A stretch of 64,000 nt of DNA from Argopecten irradians. Lineage: Eukaryota; Mollusca; Bivalvia; Pectinida; Pectinidae. Shown one piece after another: positions 4,001 to 44,312 of the stretch. Numbering within the stretch: position 1 is the stretch's first letter; the number at the start of each line of letters is the position of its first letter. The translations under genes were made by a program, and so were the position numbers. The stretch covers positions 6,389,778-6,453,777 of the forward strand of contig NC_091142.1 in NCBI RefSeq assembly GCF_041381155.1, written 5' to 3'. Below the pieces are notes generated by a model. The model was given only the letters and a program-made list of their open reading frames with translations. It made no database searches and was not told the origin of the DNA.

Positions 4001-7000
4001 TTTAGTTTCAAATAAGAAGTCATTATTTACATGGAAATAGCTAGATTGACCCTTTTGGTCCTATCCCTCAGGTACCTGGGGGAGGTGGGGGGGGGGGGGG
4101 GTCATTTACATGGAAATACCCAGATTGACCCCATCTGGCCCCGGCCCATCCCTCAGGTCCCTGGGGGAGGGAAGAGGGGGTCTTATCCTCACCATTTGGA
4201 TTATTGAACTAAAAGCTTGACCTGTATATAAAAACTACTTGGCTATACAACATTCTCTTTGACCATTGGGTGGTGTTTGTAAACAGATTTGGCTGTATGT
4301 AAAACTGAAAATACTATAACTCTTGCCTAGAAAAAAAAAAAATTAATGTAATTTGTGACACCGAACAGTTATGATAATAAAGTCAACCATTGAACTAAAA
4401 ATTATTAGATATACATACACAGGACGTTGACGGTTGAGGTAGGGGATTTCCGTCAGATCTTTTCCACTCTCCAGATGAATCCAGGCCATTTGGATATCAA
4501 CTGTATACAGCTTACATGGCTCAAAGAAAAACACCTACAACACAGAATCAATAATAGTCATTCCTTTAAACCACTTGGGGTATTGATTGTGACGCCATAT
4601 ATTTATTAAAGTATATAAATAAGAGCTTCGATCAATTCTTAATTTTCAGATAAAACAGATTTTTGACCTTTTCAGAAATATCCTGTCCCAGCTTTTAACA
4701 CCACCCTATATAGCTATTCTGACTTAAAACATCCCCTGTAGCCTCTCTCACCTCCTTCATCCCAGTGTAATCCCTCGCCTTCATGAACTTGTGTTTGAGC
4801 AGCATTAAAATGGCCATGGCGAAGTTCTGGAGAACGGACGGCTGCCAGCCTTGTAGGAATAACTGATCCCATACATACATAATCCCTGGTGTGTCCAGTA
4901 CACTAACAAAGCCCTGAAATTCATGTCATGATCAAATTTACAATTTGTTTGGATTTATCATGTCAAAATATTCTATCATTAGCTAAGATCATTGAAGGGT
5001 TTGCTGATGTTCTCCGGTGTTTATAGCGTGGATGTTTGTAGCCAATATAATTCTATAAGTTTCTTAATGAGTATGCTAATCAATGAACCCGCGTAGATAC
5101 CTAATTTACATAACTGAAAATCAAATGCAGAAATTGCAACTATTCTGCTTTATCAAAAATCTGTAATTCTTCAAAAGAAAAACACACAATATTTGTTCCA
5201 TAGCATAACTCTATTTTACTGCTCAAGAAAAATTAAAAAAAAAATTAGAAGGCCAAACCTCGCCTTTCTCTATTTTACCCTCTATTTTAGTGCATAACTG
5301 CTTTACTGATCGAGAAATATTTGAGAATTTTAAGGTCAAACCTCGCCTATCCAGCGACGGAGGAAGATGAGTGGATCTGCGAGGAGTTCAGAGTTCATGT
5401 TCTCCTCTCGTTTACTGCCGGGTGTGGCCTTCAGAAGTTCCTCCGCTTTGGCCTTCTCTACGCTGATCAGCTGGACTAGAAACTCCTGTAATATACATAG
5501 TTATATCACTTTAATGAAGGCCTTCTCTCTGATCAGCTGGACTAGAAACTCCTGTTTAATCAAAGTTATATCACTTTAATCGAAGGCCTTCTCTACGTTG
5601 ATCAGCTGGACTAGAAACTCCTGTAATATACAAAGTATATATCACTTTAATCGAAGGCCTTCGCCACACTGATCAGCTGGACTAGAAAACTCCTGTCATA
5701 TACAAAGTTTATATCACTTTAATCGAAGGCCTTCTCTACGCTGATCAGCTGGACTAGAAACTCCTGTAATATACTAAGTTATAACACTTTTAATCAAAGG
5801 CCTATTCTCTACGCTGATCAGCTGGACTAGAAACTCTCCTGTAATATACAAAGTTAATATCACTTTAATCGAAGGCCTTCTCTACGCTGATCAGCTGGAC
5901 TAGAAACTCCTGTAATATACATAGTTATATCACTTTAATCGAAGGCCTTCTCTACGCTGATCAGCTGGACTAGAAACTCCTGTAATATACAAAGTTTATA
6001 ACACTTTAATCAAAGGCCTTCTCTACGCTGATCGCTGGACTAGAAACTCCGTGTAATATAACAAAGTTATATCACTTTAATCGAAGGCCTTCTCGATAAT
6101 GACGCTGATCAGCTGGACTAGAAACTCCTGTAATATACATAGTTATATCACTTTAATCGATAAGCCTTCTTCTACGCTGATCAGATCTGGACTAGAAACT
6201 CCTGTAATATACAAAGTTATATCACTTTAATCAAAGGCCTTCTCTACGCTGATCAGCTGGACTAGAAACTCCTGTAATATACAAAGTTATATCACTTTAA
6301 TCAAAGGCCTTCTCTACGCTGATCAGCTGGACTAGAAACTCCTGTAATATACAAAGTTATATCACTTTAATCAAAGGCCTTCTCTACGCTGATCAGCTGG
6401 ACTAGAAACTCCTGTAATATACAAAGTTATATCACTTTAATCGAAGGCCTTCGCCACACTGATCAGCTGGACTAGAAACTCCTGTCATATACAAAGTTAT
6501 ATCACTTTAATCGAAGGCCTTCTCTACGCTGATCAGCTGGACTAGAAACTCCTGTAATATACAAAGTTATAACACTTTAATCAAAGGCCTTCTCTACGCT
6601 GATCAGCTGGACTAGAAACTCCTGTAATATACAAAGTTATATCACTTTAATCAAAGGCCTTCTCTACGCTGATCAGCTGGACTAGAAACTCCTGTAATAT
6701 ACAAAGTTATATCACTTTAATCGAAGGCCTTCTCTACGCTGATCAGCTGGACAAGAAACTCCTGTAATATACATAGTTATATCACTTTAATCGAAGGCCT
6801 TCTCTACGCTGATCAGCTGGACTAGAAACTCCTGTAATATACAAAGTTATAACACTTTAATCAAAAGGCCTTCTCTACGCTGATCAGCTGGACTAGAAAA
6901 CTCCTGTAATATACAAAGTTATATCACTTTAATCGAAGGCCTTCTTCTACGCTGATCAGCTGGACTAGAAACTCCTGTAATATACAAAGTTATATCACTT

Positions 7001-10000
7001 TAATCAAAGGCCTTCTCTACGCTGATCAGCTGGACTAGAAACTCCTGTAATATACAAAGTTATATCACTTTAATCGAAGGCCTTCGCCACACTGATCAGC
7101 TGGACTAGAAACTCCTGTAATATACAAAGTTATATCACTTTAATCAAAGGCCTTCTCTACGCTGATCAGCTGGACTAGAAACTCCTGTAATATACAAAGT
7201 TATATCACTTTAATCAAAGGCCTTCTCTACGCTGATCAGCTGGACTAGAAACTCCTTGTAATATACATAGTTATATCACTTTAATCAAAGGCCTTCTCTA
7301 CGCTGATCAGCTGGACTAGAAACTCCTGTAATATACAAAGTTATATCACTTTAATCAAAGGCCTTCTCTACGCTGATCAGCTGGACTAGAAACTCCTGTA
7401 ATAATACAAAGTTATATCACTTTAATCAAAGGCCTTCTCTACGCTGATCAGCTGGACTAGAAAACTCCTGTAATATACAAAGTTATATCACTTTAATCAA
7501 AGGCCTTCTCTACGCTGATCAGCTGGACTAGAAACTTCTGTAATTTACAAAGTTATATCACTTTAATCAAAGGCCTTCTCTACGCTGATCAGCTGGACTA
7601 GAAACTCCTGTAATATACAAAGTTATATCACTTTAATCAAAGGCCTTCTCTACGCTGATCAGCTGGACTAGAAACTCCTGTAATATACAAAGTTATATCA
7701 CTTTAATCGAAGGCCTTCTCTACGCTGATCAGCTGGACTAGAAACTCCTGTAATATACAAAGTTATATCACTTTAATCAAAGGCCTTCTCTACGCTGATC
7801 AGCTGGACTAGAAACTCCTGTAATATACAAAGTTATATCACTTTAATCAAAGGCCTCTCTATGCTGATCAGCTGGACTAGAAACTCCTGTAATATACAAA
7901 GTTATATCACTTTAATCGAAGGCCTTCTCTACGCTGGCCTTCTCTACGCTGATCAGCTGATCAGGACTAGAAACTCCTGTAATATATATCATGGTTATAT
8001 CACTTTAATTGAAGTAATTAGATAATGGAAAACATGGACATTTCTATAATACAATATTTATGCTATTTTTTTTTAATTTCACAATTAAGAGTTATCAAGT
8101 TATACACTGTGACTATGCCTGATGCTTTTTTCGTTGGTAATTTAATTTCACGATTTCTACTTGCCAGTGAATTTGAAATATGCAAAATTTAACTGCACAT
8201 GAATATTAGTTAGTAGCTGAATAACTTGTTTGCAAAATACTATGAAAATTAATTTCATGCAAAATCACAGTGAATGGATACACGCAATCTATAACATGGT
8301 ACATCTAAAATAAAATCACTCGTATCATTTGTGAGAAAAGAAGTAGAGCAGCGTGTTTATTATCGTGTACCTTTTTGTTGATCTTGATGTTGGTGGTAGC
8401 GATCGCCTTAAGGTGGGTGAACATATCTGGATCAGCCTGACTCAGAATGTTCATAACGGTCTCGGCGATGGCGAACACTTGGATCCACGTGGGGAAGCAG
8501 GAGTTGTTCAAGAGGTCCAGGTACATTGCTAACTCGTACACATGTTGGCCTGTAAGAGAGTGGAACATTGGAGTGGATATTAGGGTAAAATACTTTTATT
8601 AATAAGAAAAAGAACATTTAGGGATAAAATTAGAAATTTAGAAACTAAATTACATCAGTTTGAAGCATTAAAAACATCTGCAAACTACAGAATTAAAACA
8701 TGCACGCATGGATCAAATGCTTTCACAGTGTCAATGGGCCTGCTATGTAAATAAAGTGCATGGTTTTATAACTAAGTTGGTATAAACTCCCCACCAACCC
8801 ATCCATAACAAAAACTGTACCTTTTTCAGTGGGTTTATTGGACTCCTGTTGGAAGCTGACCTGTAGAGGGAACAGCCAGTGAATCAGGTACGGCTCATAG
8901 CTTCGATCGTATGTGTAGAGAATGTTGAGTGTGCGGCTCGCCTCGATCATGTGTTCGTTGGTGCGGAACGCCACCATACCAGTTGTCTTGTTGTAGGTCT
9001 GAAAATACAGGCATCGGATAATGATTATGCATGATTGGTTTCACATTCTATTAATAGCCGGGGTCAGTCAAGAACATATCGTGTTTAGGAGGTGGATAAA
9101 AACCAGAGAACTGGGAGAAAAACCACCGACCAGTGGTCAGACATACCTAGCAACTGCCCCACACAGTATTTGAACTGGCGACCCAGAGGTGGAGGGCTTG
9201 TGGTAATATGTCGAGACATCTGAACCACTTGGCCATCGTGATGATATTACTGACTCATCCAATAATGTTACTATCTGGCCGTTCCTAATCAATCATTTAA
9301 TGAAACTATCATGACATTTTATAACAAGATGGAATAAGATAGTACAGGCAACACTAGCAACATGCCTCTATGAGGAGAAACTACAAAAATAACATTAAGC
9401 TGTATTCTTTTAGTGTACATGTTTATTACGAATCTGATTCTAAATTTACAAGGCAATATCTTGCATTGTTATTCAGTTGGAAAATATTCATGAACTGTAA
9501 ATGTTTGTACGACATAAATACCCCTACCTCCACAGGACATGTTGGGACGTGATGGGACAGACATGAGTAACACTAGTATTAATTTTTTTTTATGCCATTA
9601 TGCCCCCCCCCCAACCACAGAAAAAAAAAAAAAAAAAAACAAAGAATGCACCAGTAGCAGATTACATTTTAAGAATTACCACTACAGAGGAATTTGTCTA
9701 TGAATAGATGTATACTTCAGAGGTCTGTTAGTCAATGTTTATATAGGCACTCATGTGGAATTCTCTTTATGATTCAAAGATGCGTTACTAAAGCCTACCT
9801 CGACAACAGCATTTTCTATGAGGCCAGCTATAGGGGTATTGGTAGCCCTTGAGATTCTCAAATCGTGTACACCTCTCGCCACCGCTTTGGCAAAACGCTC
9901 GCGTAATACACGCTCCAGGTTACTGTAAATATATACAAATCATCACAATAATACACAAAATATTGTTCAATCAAATTGTATTTCTTGATTTTACATAAAC

Positions 10001-13000
10001 CAACATTTAAGAAGTATAGACTCATACATCTTGAACAACAATTTTTTACTTAAACCCATACTATAAATCAATTAATTATTGTGTGCAATTGAATTTCACA
10101 TATTTCACAAGCAAGTAGCTAAATCGTGAAATTAAATCTTTGTAAAAAATATTTACACAATAGTCATGAAAATTCAAAATTAGGTCGCTGTGAAAATAAG
10201 TTTAATGTTTTTTCTAATTTCCCCCCAACTAAAATTCAATTATCATATAATACCATATTGACTGTATTAAGCGCCCCTCTCTTTTTCTGAACAAGAGTTG
10301 AAGTTGTATAAATGCCCAAATCCCATGTGTTTAATAATATTTTACAACATGTGATGCCTGTAACATCAGCATTGTATCCCACATTTCATGAACTTGTGAG
10401 TCTTTTCATTTCAACCAATTTTATTGAATCAATCAAAAGGATTGGGCAACAGGCTATGCCTATATAAGCCCTTTCCTAGCCAGAAACTATAATCAAATTA
10501 AAGTATATACATGTAATAAGTTGATTAAACAACATCTTAATTAAACAAATTTGGTATGTAACAAAAGGATTTTATTAATACTATTAATATGCCAAGTATT
10601 ATACTCTTATGGATAATTATATAAGTTTGGGAATAAATTTCAAATTGGTAATTTTATATATATATATAATATAATTGTACAAGGGAGATAATTCATTAAT
10701 AGACTGAATAATATTATAGTAGTAAGATAGTAATTAGTTATGTAATATAACAGACTAGTAAGTCTTTTACATGTTAATCACGACATGATAAGGCATCTCA
10801 AAGGATAAAAGGCATAGACATGTTTACTGTTACAAATTATTGTACCAGGAGTGCAGAAAGATTTAAAATTTGGCTGACTTTTTTCATCCACAACTTACAT
10901 TTTGATTCATTAATAAGTATCCCCCTTTATTGCAAATTATTTAAGTGCCCTGGGCGCTAGTTTCGGCGAATACAGTAATTAAAATCGCAAAAATTTCGAC
11001 CCACATAAAAATAATATGCAGTAAACAAAATATATATTTACCCTTCTGACAAACGTTTCCGCTCCTCCCTGAACAATACATCAGCCCACATGTGTGTTCG
11101 TAGTGTCCCGGGCAACTGACGCCCGTGCATTCGACCAGCGACGTGGTCAAACTTGCGGGGATCTCTTTCTAATATCGCCATGACAGCCAGGCCAATGGCG
11201 TCGCTCTGGACCCCCCACAGTGGGGGAGGGTCACCCTCAACTTTCTGTACCATTGCTGTAAAAGAGCAATTATAAACATCAAAATGTTTTATTGTAATTA
11301 TGCAAAATATAATTATATGAGTAGCGTTTTGATTAATATATACTGAATCTGCATCTAGTACTAACACTTTAAGAATTTTTTTTATAATAACCCAATGTAT
11401 AGTTTATAAGATTTTTTCAAGAATCTCTGTTTTAAAGGCTCGTTAAATAATTATTTTCATCAATTTAGATAGAAAACACATGGATAAATGGTTTATTCAT
11501 AAACTACTTTTTTAATAGCAACTTATATGTAATTAATGTTCTACAAGACTAAACTATTAAATCATAGAAACTCTTTAACATTTCCTCAAAAGTCAATATT
11601 CCAACAAACACCTACAAATTCAAGTAAAACATCATACACTGTCAGGTATATGTAAAACAACATTTCAATTAAAACTTTAATGGACATTCATGTGTATTAA
11701 TATGAACAGACTATTTGTCAAAAAAAATCATTTTTTACAATCAATATTTTATCAGTACATATCCTGAAAATAAGATGAAGCACCAAACGAACTCATTTTT
11801 CAAGTTGGTTTCTTTTGCAAGAAAAAGAACAAATTGATGGCTATTGCATAAAACATAACATCTAGGTGATTTGTGATTTAAAATATATGATTCTAGCACA
11901 GAGTCTACCAAACAATCACTCTGATACCTGTGGTCGGTACAGTCAGTGATCAGAATAAAGTCATGGGTCATTCTCAATAAAGTCAGAGATTGGTAAAGTG
12001 AGTGGTCAGTTAAGCCAATGGTCAGTTATAAAGTCATGATTAGTGGTAAGTTAAGACAGTGGCCAGTAAAGTCAGTGGTCAATCACAGAGGTCAGTTAAA
12101 GGCCCACTACCTTTCCGAAACGGTTTTTGATTTTTAAAATGGGAATGTAAAACGAGATTAATAATTTTGTCGAGTGGCAAAAGTTATTAACTTTGCGTAA
12201 ATACTACACTTATTATCACCTCCTAAACAATTTAATTAAAATAAATAAAATGTTAATTTTCATAACGCGGGTCGTCTTATGTTTTCCCCTGTCGTCATGA
12301 ATACCGCGCGGTTGTTGACTATCACTGCGGCAGACGGTAAAACAGCGAAATGACTCTCCACTGTTTTCAAATATTACGCAGGAAATCTTGCATATGTTTG
12401 GTGTTGTAACCTCATTTAGGCCATCGGTAGATATTTTCTGAGGTAATTAATGTTTTTAAGAAATCTTTATATTTTGCTCCGGAAAGGTAGTGGGCCTTTA
12501 AGTAAGTGGCCAGTAAAGTCAGCGATCAGTCACAGAGGTCAGTTAAGTAAGTGGTCAGTTACAGTAAGTAAGTGGTCAGTTACAGTAGTGAGAGGTCAGT
12601 AAAGTCAGTGGCCAGTCACAGAGGTCATGTTAAGTCAGTGGTCATCAGTTAGGTAAGTGCCAGTTACAGTAATGAGAGGTCAGTAAAGTCAGTGTCAGTC
12701 ACAGAGGTCAGTTAAGTAAGTGGTCAGTTAGGTAAGTGGCCAGTTAAGTCAGTGGTCAGTAAAGTCAGTGGTCAGTCATGTCAGTGGTCAGTAAAGACAG
12801 TGGTCAGCAAAGTCAGTGGTCAGTACATACAGTCAGCGGTCAGTAAAGTCAGTGGTCAGTAAAGTCAGTGGTCAGTAAAGTCAGTGGTCAGTAAAGACAG
12901 TTTTTTTGTACATACACTACAAAACTACAACATATAGAGCTCTGTATGTATCACACGAACTATAAACACACCGATATCATCAATTACTTGTAGATTTGTG

Positions 13001-16000
13001 ATCTCGTCGTAGTGTAGCATGCTACAGTACAATCAATATCTAGACCTACAAAAATCATCAAAATGCTTTACATTTTGTCTCGCCACCCACTGTTAGTATT
13101 TTATCTGAGAAGAAAAATCAAATTCAGAATAGATTAAAATATATTCACAAAACACATTTTTTCAAAACATGTTATTATGGCATCAAATTCTTTCTTTCAC
13201 ACACAAGAACAAATTTTAGTAGCTTATATAATTATGATTCTAAAATTATACAAAAACATCACTTTACACCAATTCCTAATATACCTTTTATGACATCAAA
13301 ACAACACAGCATATAAAATATGTTATATCACATCAATATCAACTTCAGTTTGCTGTTTTTGACACAGAAGCATGAACAGATCAAGTTTAGCTGTAAGGAA
13401 AGCTATTACACATTTATTATTCGAACAGATCAAATTTAGCTGTAAGGAAAGCTATAACACATTTATTACACACTTTTTACTAAATATTTACATTTTCTAA
13501 CCTAGGTGAAAATCACTAGCGTTTATTTCATCCTGGAGAATAGACTACATCAATTTTGTCATCCGTAACATAATTCATCATTATCTGATGGTTTTGCCAG
13601 GAGCAATCAAAAGTTTATGTTTCCAATCCTACCTTGGTCGGAATTTATTTCAAATCATTACAGTGCACGGTAATGGCCATCTAAGGTTTTATTCTTAAGG
13701 CAAAACTGCAATGCTATTTCGAATATGTTCTATAAAGTTATAGTATCTGTAATGCTAAAATTTGGTATTGAGATTCAGAATCTGTCAGAGGCTGCATCTT
13801 TTGTATTATCTTACAGTTAGCCCAATGTATTCACAAAAAGTATGTTTTCAAATTGTATTAATACAAATCCTTTGATTTAATTCACAGAAAAGTTCCAATG
13901 ACCTATACTGTATACACTTTCATTCGCCTGTGAATTATCTAAATTTCTATTTGAACTTTTGATAATATTGCCTATATACCCAGGGGCATAAAAATGATAG
14001 TATGATTTCACCTGGGTCTGAAGATGCTAACATATAAACAGCACAGACAAATCTCCTCAAAAATACCGACTTACCAGCAACCATCTGGGGATCACCTAAG
14101 GAAGTTTTATCATTCTTATATATCTGCTACAATCATTATCACAAAACTCTGATACACTATATATCCATCATACCCATTATAAAATGTTTGATTGATTGAT
14201 ATATTGCTAAACATTAAATTTGGTCTGATTTATTGATGATTCCTTTGGCTAATACTTGATTGTACTAAATGTTTTCATTTTTAGAAACATAAAGACGATA
14301 TTATTATTGAGACGTCACACTGCCCAAGGATGTACATGAGATCCTTGCACTGCCCAAACATTTGAGCTCCAGAAGGTCGTCTCCTAAGACCCTCATTCTA
14401 CCAGGATAGTATAACATCATATTGACCTCAACAATTAATAGATATCTAACGCATAGAATTGGTCATAACTTTTTATATACATGTAGAGGATATTACATAA
14501 GTGCCTTAATATTGAAAAACCCAATATTGGACAAGTTCAAGGAATTTCAGTCGGCGAGTGGTGGCTCTGTAGAACTCGCTTCCAAATTCACAAGTTAAAA
14601 CCCCAATTTTGAATATTTTTTTAAATAATTTAAATAAACATTGGTGCAATTACTTTTTAAGTTTTACCCAAATTGTGTGAAATGATATGGCAGATTTCAT
14701 TAGTCTTCTTGGAAATTGGAATTACCAATATTTTTGCAAATTCATAATTCTTCCTCATACAACTCAATGAATCAATTTACAACTATGAAGAAAACAAATA
14801 TGTAATAGAAAAATGTAGTAGACCTACTTCTGATGGCAGCAGAGTTTGGTTTGCTGCTTGGAGTTGAGGAAAGAGACGAGGATGAGGATGCAGTGGTTGA
14901 TGGCTTCACACGACTTGGTTTCACCATCTTTCTCAACTGGGAATCAGCTTGAAGTTCCTTCACCTTCTTTCTCTATAAATTGAAGATGAGACATCATTTA
15001 GCTGAGCTAAACAGGGGTTTAACAGTGAAATGATTAACAGAAAACTAATAATCCCTCTGTTGGTTTGAATAAGGGACCAATGACACCATCTCGAACCTTA
15101 TCTTATCTTAGTCTTAGGCTAATTAACATGTATCATCTTAATCAAATCAATTACGAATTCATTATTAATTTATCAATATTTTGATGTTAAACATTGAACT
15201 GCATTTAGTTGGCAATTATATGAGTTCAAATGCTAACTGGACATCGGTAAATTTAATGGAGTACTATTAACAGCGCTTTAGATACTTGTGCTTCATATTA
15301 TATGTGGTGTGGTCCTGAAGGCAGTTCATATTGAATTGGACATTGTATAAGAATGCATTTTGTCCCCCTCCATTACCATGAGAGTTAGAGTTATGATAAA
15401 ATATGAGTGCTATAACTTACTGATAGGTCCATCTCCTGAATGTATAGTTCTCGATCCAGGCCCTTGTTGAAAACACTAAAACAATGCTGTAGGAACTCTG
15501 CATATTCGCCTTTTGGTGCTTTGCTGGATAAAGATAAAGAACAGGTTTATTTATCTTAATTTACTCTTTACAATTTTTTTTTTTTTACTTCTGATCAGGT
15601 AATTTATATCAAATTTGAATACTGGTACATGAACATGGCAATAAACATTTCGAGATACACCAAAATGATGTGGGTAAAAGTATGATTTACCATCAATCAG
15701 TCCTATCTTCCGATGAGTAATGTCACAAAAATTATGTCAAATATGACGTCAGAATTACTGAAAGTTCTATTTAGTGTCAAACTTACCCATCAGACCTAGT
15801 TCTACTTCCTGTCAAACTTACCCATCAGGCCTAGTTCTACTTCCTGTCAAACTTACCCATCAGGCCCACTTCCTGTCAAACTTACCCATCAGACCTAGTT
15901 CTACTTCCTGTGAAACTTACCCATCAGGCCTAGTTCATACTTCCTGTCAAACTTACTCATCAGACCCACTTCCTGTCAAACTTACCTATTGAGACCTAGT

Positions 16001-17421
16001 TCTACTTCCTATCAAATTTACCCATCACACCCCAGTTTTACTTCCTGTCAAACTTACCCATTGGCCCTAGTTTACTTCCTGTCAAACTTACCCATCAGAC
16101 TCACTTCCTGTCAAACTTACCCATCAGACTCACTTCCTGTCAAACTTACCCATCAGCGTTAGAGAGCATGTCCCCATATCCTTCCTCCTTCACACATTTG
16201 TACAGCTGACTGGTCAGATAGGCTTCGGCCTCTTTCATGAGTATAGCTTTCTCTGAGGGCTGCATGTCAGGAGGTTCCTGTGTTTTGACGACAAGTTAAC
16301 GAACTATTGTGATTACTCTCCATATCTGTATAAGAGTACTAATCTAAACTTTATGAAACAGACTATACGTTTAGAGAAAAGTAGCATAAAAAGTGCAAAT
16401 GAATTGATAAATGATGATTAATATAACAAATATGTACATTAAAACAGTGTGAAAACAAACCTCTAGGAACAATATTGCTTCACAATAAACAGGGACTTGC
16501 TTAAATCATATAAGTGATATACTAAAGAACATTGAGAGGAAAAAATATGGCCACATATGACAGAAAATCAATTAAAACAGTAGGTCGATAAGACAGGTTT
16601 CATCATTCTGTAATTGCATATTACAGAGTTATCTGCCCTTGTGGCCATATATGGGTAGTACAGATTGTTATGTGTTTAAGAATGTAATGCTATATTTTTC
16701 TGAGAAAACAACATAGCGGCCTCTATCAGATTGTAATCCGCAGAAATATTTCCTCCCTACCTGTATGCAGTGCTATGTAAAATCTTAGGATTTACCAGAA
16801 TCTGTGGGTTAGGTTCCACATCGGGTAGGTAGCTGGCCACATACTGCTTGCCTAGACTTCCCAATAATGCTTCCTTCCTCTCTGGCTTCTTAAACTGCTT
16901 AGACACTTTCTTGGCCAGAGCTTCAGCTATTTTGTGCTCAATCTACAAGAATTAAATATCTGAAGAGATATATAACTGTATAAAAGATCAACAGAAAATT
17001 CTTTATAATTAAAGATCTTGTTAATTACATTTTTATACTATTTTCTGCGTTCCTATTTGTATTTTTATATATGGAATACCGGTGTTTCTCTCATTTTTTC
17101 ATCATTTTAGTTTCTCCCCTGTTTTTTTCCTTTTTTTATATAATTTTTTATTTAACATATTATCGATGGTTTATATGAAACAAACTATATTTTTAAAGAA
17201 AAGTAACCTAAAGTGGAAATGAGTCGTTAAAAGATGTTCAAGAACTGTGCTTATAACACAGTGTTAAGACCCACCTTGTGCCATGGAGCGTCAGGAAGTA
17301 GTGTCTGTTGATAGCTGGAGTTCAGCCAATCCTGAGAGAAAGGGCGCTGCTCCGCAAACTCGGGGTTGTCAGGGTACTCGACCCTGAGCCCTGTCTTCGG
17401 CGCTCCCATTTTGTTCGACAT
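1043..17421 (-). CDS. TBC (Rab-GAP-like) domain protein, 15 exons, 3' end not found
   Basis: Exons read on the minus strand: 17275-17421, 16796-16942, 16150-16277, 15421-15523, 14828-14972, 11042-11255, 9799-9922, 8821-8998, 8371-8549, 5342-5485, 4752-4913, 4421-4534, 3375-3454, 2413-2539, 1043-1325. All junctions are GT-AG and phases match, giving 758 residues so far. The first ATG (MSNKMGAPKTGLRVEY) opens exon 1. Residues 1-220 are charged, with a Ser-rich linker near 200-220. A TBC-like fold follows: LPGTLRTHMWADVL near 275, then HVYELAMYLDLLNN, FPTWIQVFAIAETVMNIL and GFVSVLDTPGIMYVWDQLF near 505. TBC proteins normally activate Rab GTPases, but I see no IxxDxxR arginine finger and no YxQ glutamine finger, so this may be a non-catalytic scaffold. 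The C-terminal 230 residues are unrecognised. The last exon ends in phase 1, so more coding sequence is expected. Family call moderate; I cannot name an orthologue. Confidence 0.75.
1898..2381. mobile_element. Non-autonomous hAT-type element in intron 14 of the TBC gene
   Basis: The element is flanked by a perfect 8-bp direct repeat ATTACACA (1890-1897 and 2382-2389). Its ends are short inverted repeats, AGGGGTGACTATCG on the left against AGGGGTGTAACAATACATCG read inward from the right. An 8-bp target duplication with AGGGGTGTAAC-type ends fits the hAT superfamily. The interior is about 480 bp with no coding potential and is rich in ATTGCAATAG and CTATCGATAG palindromes (1920-2030, 2255-2365). 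It depends on a transposase supplied elsewhere. Confidence 0.75.
2775..3200. repeat. Old dispersed repeats in intron 13 of the TBC gene
   Basis: Two repeat-like blocks lie here. At 2780-2900 is a segment with CAGTGAAACCTGCCTTAGTG and AAAGACCACCTG words that recurs in form at 51930-52100. At 3060-3200 is a block with CCAAATTTAATCAAAATC, TTCAGGAGTTTGCGGGACAA and a CAGACAGACAGACGGACAA run, a pattern I associate with dispersed repeats of marine invertebrates. A poly-C tract follows at 3188. Class unknown. Confidence 0.45.
3700..4320. repeat. Degenerate repeat block with G-rich tracts, intron 12
   Basis: Similar segments start near 3710, 3900, 4030 and 4105. Each carries an A-T-T-G-A-C-C core preceded by AAATAGCC/AAATAGCTAG/AAATACCC and followed by a C-rich then G-rich stretch. 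Two of them share CATCCCTCAGGT(A/C)C(C)TGGGGGAGG. A run of about 16 G occurs near 4090. It looks like a diverged tandem duplication of a mobile sequence; no gene. Confidence 0.45.
5449..7985. repeat. 70-bp minisatellite that copies the exon 10 splice acceptor (about 36 units)
   Basis: The unit length is 70 bp, seen from the spacing of TCTCTACGCTGATCAGCTGG (6241, 6311, 6381). On the gene's own strand each unit reads TATATTACAG followed by the first 36 bases of TBC-gene exon 10 (GAGTTTCTAGTCCAGCTGAT onward), then TTTGATTAAAGTGATATAAC. The outermost copy at 5449-5485 is the genuine exon start; the others lie upstream in intron 9. Copies are highly similar, with occasional 1-4 bp indels and variants such as CGCCACAC for CTCTACGC (5661, 6451, 7083). 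In a decoy unit the exon-like part runs into an in-frame TAA. Confidence 0.95.
7990..8370. other. Remainder of intron 9, no feature seen
   Basis: This is AT-rich intron sequence between the 70-bp array and exon 9 of the TBC gene. I see only scattered dispersed-repeat words such as TTAATTTCACGATTTCTACTTG near 8140. No open frame or RNA gene is visible. Confidence 0.4.
9055..9240 (-). mobile_element. Old tRNA-derived SINE copy, intron 7 of the TBC gene
   Basis: It is a diverged copy of the SINE at 21385-21606 in the same orientation. Shared words on the plus strand are GAGAAAAACCACC, CAACTGCCCCACA, CCCAGAGGTGGAGGGCTTGT, GGTAATATGTCG and CCACTTGGCCA. The promoter B box and tRNA-like head are eroded, so it is older than the 21385 copy. 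No clear target duplication remains. Confidence 0.75.
10245..10985. repeat. Candidate palindromic element in intron 6
   Basis: The left side reads TTGACTGTATTAAGCGCCCC (10257 onward). The right side, read inward on the other strand, gives TTACTGTATTCGCCGAAACT followed by AGCGCCC. The two ends are thus partly inverted copies about 700 bp apart, and the interior is AT-rich without coding sequence. No target duplication was recognised, so limits and class are uncertain. An (AT)n run lies near 10655. Confidence 0.35.
11940..12902. repeat. GTCAGTGGTCAGTAAA-type minisatellite, intron 5 of the TBC gene
   Basis: Irregular tandem copies of GTCAGTGGTCAGTAAA and GTCAGTTAAGTAAGTGGTCA run from about 11940 to 12100 and again from 12498 to 12902. 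The two blocks were one array, interrupted by the TTAA-flanked element at 12100-12497. The right block is more regular (12740-12900, units of 16-17 bp), which suggests recent local amplification. Confidence 0.9.
12100..12497. mobile_element. TTAA-flanked MITE inserted in a minisatellite
   Basis: The 398-bp element begins AGGCCCACTACCTTTCCG and ends with the exact inverted copy. It is bounded on both sides by TTAA (12096-12099 and 12498-12501). A TTAA target duplication is the hallmark of piggyBac-type transposition, so this is likely a non-autonomous piggyBac-like element. The interior contains no long open frame. It sits inside the GTCAGTG array, so the array is older. A lone copy of one end with its TTAA is at about 41565-41585. 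Confidence 0.8.
12903..14827. other. Rest of intron 5, no gene seen
   Basis: AT-rich intron sequence of about 1.9 kb. A short tandem duplication of AACAGATCAA(G/A)TTTAGCTGTA occurs at 13375-13460. Nothing else stands out on either strand. Confidence 0.4.
15774..16167. repeat. 29/35-bp minisatellite that copies the exon 3 splice donor (12 units)
   Basis: Twelve copies of the core GTCAAACTTACCCATCAG occur in two unit lengths: a 29-bp form with CCCACTTCCT or CTCACTTCCT, and a 35-bp form with CCTAGTTCTACTTCCT. On the gene's strand the core reads CTGATGG|GTAAGTTTGAC, the 3' end of TBC-gene exon 3 with its GTAAGT donor. The unit next to the exon (16141-16156) is the genuine donor. The other eleven lie downstream in intron 3. 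Read-through from the exon meets TAA at once (GAT GGG TAA). Confidence 0.93.
16611..16668. repeat. One end of a palindromic MITE, intron 2
   Basis: The sequence TTGCATATTACAGAGTTATC followed by TGCCCTTGTGG matches the arm of the palindromic elements at 48084-48254 and 60168-60344. Only one arm is present here, so it is a truncated copy. Confidence 0.6.
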
Positions 17422-17903: not shown

Positions 17904-20900
17904 TCAGACAGGTAACGAAGCCTGTAAGTCGGGAGGGTTCTCTCCGTAACAATATTTGGTGTCCGAATTTCTGTAAGAATTTTCATGTTGCACACTCTGG
18001 GAAAGAAAAATAAATAAATAAAATTCATAACCTATGATTATCACATGAGAATCACAATGTTAAGATCCATCTCAAACGAAAAATTTAAGGCATTTTACAA
18101 TTGAACATGCATCTGGTACATAATTATATTGATCTTTATTCTATTTCCAATGGATATTATTTCTTTTTAACACTTTCCTCATGATTATTTCGATGTAAGA
18201 CAATGCTAAATAAGCGAGAAATACCAACAACTTTCATATGTGAATTACGTCTTTTTCTCAAAACATCATATGATATAAATTTTTGTCACATGTGGATTAT
18301 TATAAGCCACACTCCGGATTTCCAAGAGAAAAAGTAACGGATTATAATCCGGAAAATGTGGTATCAAAGTGGATGGTGCATGATGGGACTTATAAGGAAG
18401 GAAATGGGAAAAGAACAGAAAGACGTGAGACATTTTATAACTGGTCATATTTACCATTGATGATGTTCTACACTTGGAGAGACAAAGTTCAAATAGATTA
18501 TCTACAGACGCAAACAGTTTGTCTAGGGCTTCTCGTCCATCTCTCAGAATTTTTTGCATCAAAGGTTTCTGAAATATAGAAATACATATATATATAAACA
18601 TAATAATCACTGCATATTTATCATAACAATTGTGTTTGCATCTGACACAGTTACTGTAACAAAGGGTTTCATTAAAATTCTGGAGTGTAAATGTATGAGA
18701 GACAAAAAAATAAACATGTAGTCGACTGGTACATTTCACCTAGTCGGCTCATTGATATATAAAGATAACTAGCTTTAGGTTTGACTCATCCTTGATATTC
18801 CAGGGGTTCCTATTTCTGCTATTTTTTATCCGCCCCTAAACTATTTCATAGTAAAACTGAAGGCATTTCAGGAGAAATAAACTGACCGATCACATCCCTG
18901 CAGAGACTTCCTTTGAAATTTACAGAAAACAATGCTCAACTATGTCAGTGTAATGTTATTCGTTATACATCAAAAGACCAAACTACCTGTTTCATTTGTC
19001 ACACAAAGTGCCTTCAGTTTCCCTATGACAAAGTCCAAGAAAGAATACCACGAGAGTGACAAAAACCCAAAGAGTATTGTAATTGAGGATGAGTCAGTCT
19101 GTATCTTAGTTATAACAAAAATTTTTATCTTCAATTATCATCTCAAATCTATTTAAGAATTTAGCCTACATCTTATTATTGCTTTGATGTTATCAGGCAG
19201 GTTGTCCGCAAATAAGACCCCTCACCACTTTTACCTTTATTTCTTCTCTAAGTGGAGGGTCTTATTTGCAGTGAAATACGGTAATTACGTATACGTGTAT
19301 TTGTTATATACAATGTACCTTTTCCGGGCGAAGGCAGCATGACACACAGAACTCATATTTCTCACAACAGCCATTCTTCTCACAAGTATCACAGCTGTGC
19401 TTTGATGCTCGGGCTTGTTTAATGTCACAACATCCTCCACCGACTACGTGTTCCCGATCACACACATAACCTGGAAAAGTAGGTCAAGGTTAAACTGTGC
19501 ATTGTGTAAAAAGTAGGTAAACTGTAGGTATGTAAAAGTAGGTCAAGGTTAAAATCATGTGAATGTGTCAAGGTTAAGTGTACAATGTGTAAAAGTAGGT
19601 CAAACTTACACTGTTAAAAAAACATATAACAGTATGTCAAGGTTAAACAATGGGTAAAGTAGGTACAACATGTAAAAAAGGTTAAAGGTTAAATTATAAA
19701 GTGTGTTAAACTGTGTAAAAATAGGTAAAAAGGTTAACATATGTTCATGTAAATGTGTCAGTAGTTAAACTCTAAATAAAAGTAGGTCAAACTTACACTG
19801 TTAGTTAAACATATAAAAGTATGTCAAGGTTTAAACTGTACAACATGTAAAAGTAGGTCAATGTTAAACTATACAGTGTGTAAAAGTAGGTCAAGGTTAA
19901 ACTGTGCATCATGTGAAAGTAGGTCAAGGTTAAGCTGTACAATGTGTAAAAGTAGGTCAAACTTACACTATTACAATGTGTAAACATGTAAAAGTAGGTC
20001 AAACTTACACTGTTAAACATATAAAAGTATGTCAAGGTTTAAACTCTACAATGTGTAAAAGTAGGTCCAAGTTTAAACTGTAAAACATGTAAAAGCAGGT
20101 CAAGGTTAAACTGTAGGGCATGCAAAACCATCATCACACACTATATAACTTGCATTTAAAAGTAGGTCCATGTTAAAATGTATGGAAGTAGTTCAAGCAA
20201 ACAAAATATCAAGTTGCATTAAAAACTGTAGTCACTTATCTTTCCAATTGGATGCTAGCAATATAACAATAACAAAATTGAAGCACATCAGCATGAATCA
20301 TTGGATCCTTAAAAATACATCGCTTACTTATTACCTTTAAATTTCGATATTGTTTCGAAAAAGCGTGATATATATATAAATGCTAGCCTAGGCCTGTTTC
20401 TACACACATTGACATTGAAAATTCTGTAAAGAGTTTTAAAATGTACAGCAATGTATAAAACTCTAACACAAAACAAACCTCGTTCATCTACTATAAGTTT
20501 TTTCCCTTGTACCGAGTTTCTACATATGAATTGTCTAGTTGAGTTGGCCTCTGGCAGATCTGGAATCTTTGGTTGCCATTCAAAAGGTTGTCGTAGGAAG
20601 GTCCTCTTTATCTCATACTGTTCATTCACAAGGTCCTGCTTCTATAATAAATGATAAAAATGACAGTACATTAGTAACAAAAGAGAATAAGTTAATACTT
20701 TGATCCCTTACAGGGGTCACAAGCATAAATTGAATCCTCTGCCACCTTTTCATGTCCATTATTAGATATTAAGAAATTCCCATTAACCTAAACTAAAGCT
20801 TGAAAGCTAGCTACTAGAGTTCACCAATGCAGCCCATTGACAATGTGGACTACTTATGTGGACATACCTCTGTATTTTCTAATTTCCATTGAAAGTACAA

Positions 20901-40201: not shown

Positions 40202-40224
40202 CAGACGCTACGACACTAACCTAC

Positions 40225-40475
40225 ACATTTTGCGACCAGTTTCAACCTACTCATTTTTCGACCAATTTCAACCTTCTCATTATGCGACCAATATCAACCT
40301 TCTCATTTCCGACCAATTTCAACCTACTCATTTTCGACCAATTTCAACCTACTCATTTTACGACCAATTTCAACCCATTTGTTCTGCGACCAATTTCAAC
40401 CTACTCATTTTCGACCAATTTCAACCTTCTCATTTTTCGACCAATTTCAACATACTCATTTTGCGACTATTTTCG
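40225..40475. repeat. CGACCAATTTCAACCTACTCATTTT minisatellite in the P450 3' UTR
   Basis: About ten head-to-tail units of 23-26 bp, with the core GACCAATTTCAACCTACTCA, begin about 25 bp after the P450 stop codon. Units differ by a few substitutions and indels, so the array is moderately old. It should lie within the mature mRNA unless the 3' UTR is extremely short. Confidence 0.9.
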
Positions 40476-42062: not shown

Positions 42063-43475
42063 ATTTCAAATTAAACGGTATTTCAATATAACCTATTCCA
42101 AATTATTAAATGGGTTCACTGTAATAAACAGTATTTCAATATAACCTATTCCAAATTAAATGGGTTTACTGTATTAAACGGTATTTCAATATAACCTATT
42201 CCAAATTAAATGGGTTCACTGTAATAAACAGTATTTCAAGATAACCTATTCCAAATTAAATGGGTTTACTGTATTAAACATTATTTCAATATAACCTATT
42301 CCAAATTAAATGGGTTTACTGTATTAAACATTATTTCAATATAACCTATTCCAAATGAAATGGGTTTACTGTAATAAACAGTATTTCAATATAACCTATT
42401 CCAAATTAAATGGGTTCACTGTATTAAACAGTATTTCAATATAACATATTCCAAATTAAATGGGTTCACTGTAATAAACAGTATTTTAATGTAACCTATT
42501 CCAAATTAAATGGGTTCACTGTAATAAACAGTATTTTAATGTAACCTATTCCAAATTAAATGGGTTCACTGTAATAAACAGTATTTTAATGTAACCTATT
42601 CCAAATTAAATTGGTTCACTGTAATAAACAGTATTTTTAATGTAACCTATTCCAAATTAAATGGGTTCACTGTAATAAACAGTATTTTAATGTAACCTAT
42701 TCCAAATTAAATGGGTTCACTGTAATAAACAGTATTTTAATGTAACCTATTCCAAATTAAATGGGTTCACTGTAATAAACATTATTTCAATATAACCTAT
42801 TCCAAATTAAATGGGTTTATTGTATTAAACATTATTTCAATATAACCTATTCCAAATTAAATGGGTTTATTGTATTAAACATTATTTCAATATAACCTAT
42901 TCCAAATTTAATGGGTTTACTGTATTAAACAGTATTTCAATATAACCTATTCCAAATTAAATGGGTTTACTGTAATAAACAGTATTTCAATATAACCTAT
43001 TCCAAATTAAATGGGTTTACTGTAATAAACAGTATTTCAATATAACCTATTCCAAATTAAATGGGTTTACTGTAATAAACAGTATTTCAATATAACCTTT
43101 TCCAAATTAAATGGGTTCACTGTAATAAACAGTATTTCAATATAACCTATTCCAAATTAAATGGGTTCACTGTATTAAACAGTATCTCAATATAACCTAT
43201 TCCAAATTAAATGGGTTCACTGTATTAAACAGTATTTCAATATAACCTATTCCAAATTAAATGGGTTTACTGTATTAAACAGTATTTCAATATAACCTAT
43301 TCCAAATTAAATGGGTTTACTGTATTAAACAGTATTTCAATATAACCTATTCCAAATTAAATGGGTTTACTGTATTAAACAGTATTTCAATATAACCTAT
43401 TCCAAATTAAATGGGTTTACTGTAATAAACAGTATTTCAATATAACCTGTTCCAAATTAAATGGGTTTACTGTAT
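42063..43475. repeat. 50-bp satellite array, about 28 units
   Basis: The period is exactly 50 bp, for example TGTAATAAAC at 43021 and 43071. The unit contains CAGTATTTCAATATAACC, TATTCCAAATTAAATGGGTT and TACTGTAATAAA. A short palindrome ACTGT(A/T)(A/T)TAAACAGT falls in most units. Variants cluster: a TTTTAATGTAACC version occupies about 42480-42770, and a GGTTTACTGTATTAAACATT version lies on both sides, showing local homogenisation. Confidence 0.95.
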
Positions 43476-44154: not shown

Positions 44155-44312
44155 ATATTAAACGGTATTTCAATATAACCTATTCCAAATTAAATGGGTT
44201 CACTGTAATAAACAGTATTTCAAGATAACCTATTCCAAATTAAATGGGTTTACTGTATTAAACATTATTTCAATATAACCTATTCCAAATTAAATGGGTT
44301 TACTGTATTAAA
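44155..44312. repeat. Second block of the 50-bp satellite, about 3 units
   Basis: Three copies of the same unit as at 42063-43475, in the same orientation (TATTTCAATATAACCTATTC then CAAATTAAATGGGTT). The order of variants (first ACGGTATTTC, then a CAAGATAACC unit, then ATTATTTC) closely matches the units at about 42180-42300. A segmental duplication of that part is likely. Confidence 0.9.

Follow-up and report, generated by a model that had tools for sequence, protein, structure and literature searches.

A mirage-like minisatellite repeats the exon 10 acceptor of a TBC-domain gene in Argopecten irradians

When the acceptor of an exon is repeated dozens of times in the intron ahead of it, how is the real site told from its copies? 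This question is raised by a TBC-domain gene on the minus strand of the Argopecten irradians genome, in which intron 9 carries a tandem array made of its own 3′ end and the start of exon 10. The window, which is the whole stretch of 64,000 nt that was analysed (C9:6389778-6453777), lies within a genome of 846 Mb in 1508 contigs. Two adjacent myosin exon pieces of this genome (209 residues) match scallop striated myosin of the PDB (1dfk, 1dfl, 1b7t), entries from Argopecten irradians, at 208 of 208 aligned positions.

The array and its host gene

Exons 9, 10 and 11 of the gene were located. Exon 9 (QHVYELAMYL...KINKK) occupies positions 8371-8549 (minus strand) and ends at the donor AAG/GTACAC at 8371/8370 (4.1 bits). 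Exon 10 (5342-5485, minus strand; translation EFLVQLISVEKAKAEELLKATPG...RRWIGE) is 144 nt long, and its donor GAG/GTTTGA, of 3.2 bits, is in phase 0 as exon 11 requires. The 5′ end of exon 11 (4749-4916, minus strand; the 3′ end is approximate) reads TTTCAG/GGCTTTG. With the three exons joined, the Pfam RabGAP-TBC match covered residues 95-150 of 162 (9.8e-7, 29.1 bits; cut-off 25.2); it begins in exon 10, and most of it lies in exon 11. Joining more exons gave 9.4e-6 and 25.9 bits. The exon 9-11 protein has three matches in the genome, one per exon and at this locus only, and this search found no further copy of the gene to compare it with. A search for a PDB relative of exons 9-11 returned three matches up to an E-value of 10, the best at 0.07 and all of them ribosomal protein L38. 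Exon 10 has one diverged duplication of its donor end (5170-5350, minus strand; 43/60 identical), and the second donor, GAG/GTTTGG at 5259/5258, lies 80 nt downstream and scores 4.5 bits.

TRF identified a period-70 array at 5450-7936 with 35.2 copies and 94% matches. An anchored search gave 36 units, the exon start of the last unit being position 5485. Each unit consists of 34 nt of the intron end and the first 36 nt of exon 10 (minus strand), the exonic part reading EFLVQLISVEKA. The array adjoins the authentic exon 10 junction and is in register with it: the real junction (5486/5485) sits in the unit nearest exon 10, which continues into the exon. The authentic acceptor and the intronic part of this last unit cover 5486-5520 (minus strand). 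Degenerate copies extend the array to approximately 8013 (5450-8013, minus strand), and 8014-8370 is a repeat-free stretch of the intron. A first-pass annotation of this DNA had described a 70-bp unit with the first 36 bases of exon 10 and some 35 decoy acceptors ahead of the real one. TRF, the unit alignment and the acceptor and junction tables agree with both, with 35 decoys among the 36 units. The span it gave, 5449-8370, runs past the array at one end, where 8370 is the exon 9 donor. The observation itself holds: a field of decoys has been made from the exon's own edge.

The annotation had also read the similarity among units as recent or continuing amplification. The mean identity of 96% among units 3-25 fits this reading, but the similarity falls to 83% in units 26-36, the 11 closest to exon 10, which have small indels in the unit alignment. 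The units are therefore not all equally young. Exonic columns carry 0.029 substitutions per site and unit and intronic columns 0.033, with two exonic columns counted on the intronic side. Such similar variation of exonic and intronic columns is the pattern expected of unconstrained decoys. When a 161-base query from the array region was searched against the 846-Mb genome, by a nucleotide search that omits very common words, all 36 matches fell within this array, and a dispersed element was ruled out. No second haplotype of the 70-bp array was found in the assembly by nucleotide and protein searches, and no Rfam RNA matched at gathering score. Introner elements are dispersed mobile elements, repeats that carry splice sites. 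The scallop unit carries a splice site as well, but by the genome search it occurs at one place only.

Decoy acceptors and the site used

The AG is intact in 34 of the 35 decoys, or in 35 of the 36 units when the real site is included. The acceptor of each unit was scored with a generic weight matrix, a check that the first-pass annotation had proposed. The real acceptor reached 3.8 bits; 26 of the 35 decoys exceeded it, six equalled it and three were lower. With most decoys scoring above it, the real acceptor cannot be picked out by site strength. Normal splicing of exon 10 would, we infer, require its acceptor to be marked by position rather than by strength. Read through in the frame of exon 9, all 35 decoys hit a stop after 3-18 codons. 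For 25 of the 35, the stop comes after exactly 14 codons, just where the annotation had placed an in-frame stop. There are 184 GT sites within the array, and the best donor score among them is 2.2 bits, compared with 3.2 bits for exon 10, 4.1 for exon 9 and 8.9 for exon 3.

Arrays of this kind have been described in amphioxus. Tandem repeats across exon-intron boundaries were named mirages there, with units of 10-72 bp in Adh3 and 150-160 bp in BflGb6; the available part of the paper reports regular splicing past the arrays by RT-PCR and proposes mirages as a source of introns (PMC3087553). Haplotypes of BflGb6 with six and three copies are reported in the accessible text of two papers (PMC3087553, PMC3902484). 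PGBD5 and troponin C also carry such repeats, those of PGBD5 being termed imperfect by their own paper, and repeats of this kind are said there to leave splicing undisturbed (PMC3902484). Somatic length instability has been reported for the Adh3 mirage.

The scallop array is like the mirages of Adh3, the globins BflGb6 and BflGb9, troponin C and PGBD5, as these are presented in the available text, in being a minisatellite-like duplication of a boundary (PMC3087553, PMC3902484). In both animals 5′ and 3′ boundaries are affected, with donor and acceptor arrays in the scallop, and many copies keep AG or GT (AG in 35/36 units of the scallop array). Amphioxus haplotypes differ in copy number, and in the scallop a probable haplotype pair does so at a different junction array, with 47 versus 29 copies. 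The scallop case differs in its mollusc host, in copy numbers of up to about 62 and in the 20 of 53 sampled arrays that lie at junctions. Judged in this way, the 70-bp array is a mirage-type array in a mollusc, and the kind is already known. No report of boundary minisatellites outside cephalochordates, molluscs included, was found in the literature searched, the coverage of which leaves out most subscription journals. Two other systems were compared. Intron gain by tandem genomic duplication (potato RdRp) shares the intragenic tandem duplication and, in the accessible part of the source, is discussed with the origin of introns (PMC4974935). Unlike that case, the scallop array lies inside an existing intron, and no new intron is evident. 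Minisatellites of C. elegans, linked in the available text to multiple splicing decisions, are likewise intronic and discussed in connection with splicing (PMC4039745).

We consider it likely that the array is a mirage-type minisatellite, that exon 9 is mostly joined to the copy nearest exon 10 and that the decoys are mostly skipped. The founding event would have been a short tandem duplication that spanned the intron 9/exon 10 junction. Slippage or unequal exchange may then have expanded the array to 36 units, mostly away from exon 10. The most likely splicing partner of exon 9 is the copy closest to exon 10: under exon definition, pairing this copy with the exon 10 donor would give the shortest internal exon. 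Good donors are missing from the tract that holds the decoys, which would mostly be passed over. Rare use of a decoy would lead to an early stop, and the message would probably be degraded. In the 11 acceptor arrays of the survey described below, the unit retains at least 19 intronic nt in every case (11/11), as would be needed if the exon-nearest copy is the one that works. The chance of such retention is 0.003 at a threshold of 17 nt, which was picked after seeing the data; the donor arrays keep at least 7 nt in 9/9 cases, with a chance of 0.23. Selection by exon definition is made less certain by the real acceptor, which scores below most decoys, together with the weak donor of exon 10. The would-be exons from the first three decoys (210, 279 and 351 nt) would be tolerable to exon definition, which counts against it as well.

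The same features could be read as a splicing sink that depends on copy number, in which decoys capture a share of the exon 9 donors, translation stops early and the length of the array sets the output of the gene. The annotation had suggested that copy number may vary between individuals and tune splicing. A sink of this type would fit the AG kept in 34/35 decoys, the 26/35 with a higher matrix score than the real site, the early stops in 35/35, the weak exon 10 donor and the difference in length, 47 against 29 copies, at a different junction array. However, such arrays are reported not to disturb splicing in the accessible text on amphioxus (PMC3087553, PMC3902484), and the scallop units show no sign of constraint; we regard the sink as possible but doubtful. 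Acceptors intact in 34/35 decoys would also be expected if the decoys were real alternative or recursive exons, but a top donor of only 2.2 bits in the array and a stop within 18 codons in each decoy read make this very improbable. It is just as hard to credit that the assembler inflated or created the array. Tandem arrays are difficult to assemble, and the small indels in the units nearest exon 10 could be taken in that sense, yet many loci have different arrays with different units, and one array occurs in each member of what is probably a haplotype pair.

Arrays at other splice junctions

Loci were sampled from the genome at 30 of 32 RabGAP-TBC, 30 of 82 myosin-head and 20 of 130 kinesin matches, the kinesin set being hand-picked. 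The TRF thresholds were at least 2.8 copies, 80 bp and a period of 15, and exons outside the HMM hits were identified by eye from open frames. Of 53 non-redundant arrays, 20 contain or abut a junction at which an open coding exon is spliced; uniform founding, in a simple placement model with a mean intron of 1,705 bp taken from the literature, predicts 2.8. These 20 comprise 11 acceptors and nine donors; three of them (L014, L017, L041) have at most one exonic nt in the unit. Copy number reaches about 62 (L026). By family, the junction arrays were 14 of 29 in RabGAP-TBC (1.4 expected), 5 of 17 in myosin (0.9) and 1 of 7 in kinesin (0.5); by itself, the kinesin set gives no sign of an excess. 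From the kinase matches, four of 142 were also sampled and yielded two arrays, neither confirmed at a junction. L013 (2.2 copies) and L052 (2.6) were excluded as below the 2.8-copy threshold, and L032 as the second haplotype of L031. Splice-like units were seen in L036, L044, L062, L071 and L096, with no single junction confirmed, and no junction was found for the L015/L038 array, one of the 53. Arrays at other splice junctions rule out a gene-specific oddity. The annotation's picture of a curiosity of one gene has to be given up, both for the several junction arrays in the sampled loci and for the described kind of repeat to which they belong. Junction arrays are seemingly common in this genome.

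A strict count at the edges of HMM hits gave 7 arrays at 158 edges, compared with 1.8 expected (P 0.003). At the RabGAP-TBC and myosin loci, 10 of 46 array ends lie within 60 bp of an exon edge, and other 120-bp bins hold approximately 2.9; 4 of these 10 span no junction (the second array of L018, L030, the first array of L037 and L048). The L081 array likewise spans no junction. Splice-like sites that reach 7 bits were present in 22/52 units in sense and 10/52 in antisense, these counts resting on 52 arrays and the placement test on 53. At 9 bits, the numbers were 10 and 2 of 52 units, and shuffled units gave a mean of 2.7 and a maximum of 8 in 100 rounds. Sense scored above antisense in 33/52 units, a modest excess (P 0.035 by sign test and 0.003 by Wilcoxon test).

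Neutral placement does not account for the enrichment of arrays at junctions. Splice junctions may be hot spots of tandem duplication, linked to transcription or repair, in which case a mutational bias and not chance placement would put the arrays there. We place this idea a little short of even. It would add to the mirage-type explanation and is compatible with it. The 20/53 arrays at junctions, the strict edge count, the crowding of array ends near exon edges (though 4/10 miss the junction) and the sense excess at 7 and 9 bits point towards a bias. However, the effect is uneven between families, from 14/29 in RabGAP-TBC and 5/17 in myosin to 1/7 in kinesin and 0/2 confirmed in kinase; the model of placement is a simple one, exons not covered by HMM hits were judged by eye, and the sense excess of 33/52 is modest.

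Copy number was compared at one such locus. An 85-bp acceptor array at a RabGAP-TBC exon has 29 copies on chromosome C7 and 47 on the unplaced contig C391, and the flanks are 98.3, 98.6 and 99.3% identical. In the same stretch, a 64-bp array has 17 copies on C7 and 5 on C391; for a 96-bp array, counting anchors gives 6 copies on each, and TRF gives 7.9 and 5.2. C391 is probably the other haplotype of the C7 locus; alternatively, it may be a recent duplication.

The frequency of junction arrays in the scallop would be new, if a full count upholds it. Near-identical acceptor or donor arrays offer natural experiments on how splice sites are chosen, with position as the variable and the sequence near constant. 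Should they prove common in scallops, exon definition could be tested directly against first-AG scanning, and boundary minisatellites would not be peculiar to amphioxus. Such arrays may supply new introns and expression differences between animals, and may be a hazard for gene annotation. A broader picture can be offered only tentatively, and we would sooner doubt it than rely on it: scallop junctions would be duplication hot spots, thousands of them with haplotype-variable decoy arrays, splicing fidelity would come from exon definition and not from site sequence, and array length would be a heritable modifier of gene output.

Further arrays in the window and the sampled loci

A donor array with a 35-bp period and about 12 copies (GATGG/GTAAGTTTGACAGG...) was identified by TRF and the junction table at 15763-16156 (minus strand). 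It starts 7 nt inside exon 3 (16277-16150), which probably belongs to the same TBC-domain gene. The neighbouring gene is SPRING1 (Pfam 4.8e-33), and a degenerate repeat of approximately 33 bp (19471-20115, minus strand) runs up to the acceptor of one of its exons, which starts at 19470. This case is weaker: the TRF array ends at 19808, and the junction table found no array at the junction.

In the sampled loci, three consecutive junctions of one RabGAP-TBC gene have arrays (L026 1-1550, 1651-1856, and 2370 into L094), namely an acceptor (25 bp), a donor (52 bp) and the next acceptor (55 bp). An array with a unit of approximately 34 bp fills nearly all of one intron of L018 (1663-2368), leaving some 10 nt behind the donor and some 3 nt ahead of the acceptor, and L020 has the same intron. 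A kinase exon of L096 is followed at 1479-1806 by a 38-bp unit whose motif resembles an acceptor; the sequence stretch breaks off there, and no exon was confirmed.

Three more features of the window were noted. At 12105-12493, approximately 390 bp with the inverted ends GGCCCACTACCTTTCCGG and CGGAAAGGTAGTGGGCC interrupt a minisatellite, as judged by eye; this resembles the insertion of a small inverted-repeat transposable element into the array. A 26-bp array at 40218-40474 starts about 20 bp past the stop codon of what, by eye, resembles a P450 last exon and would lie in the 3′ untranslated region. Finally, one 50-bp unit forms two arrays approximately 700 bp apart, with 28 copies at 42072-43474 and 3 copies at 44156-44312.
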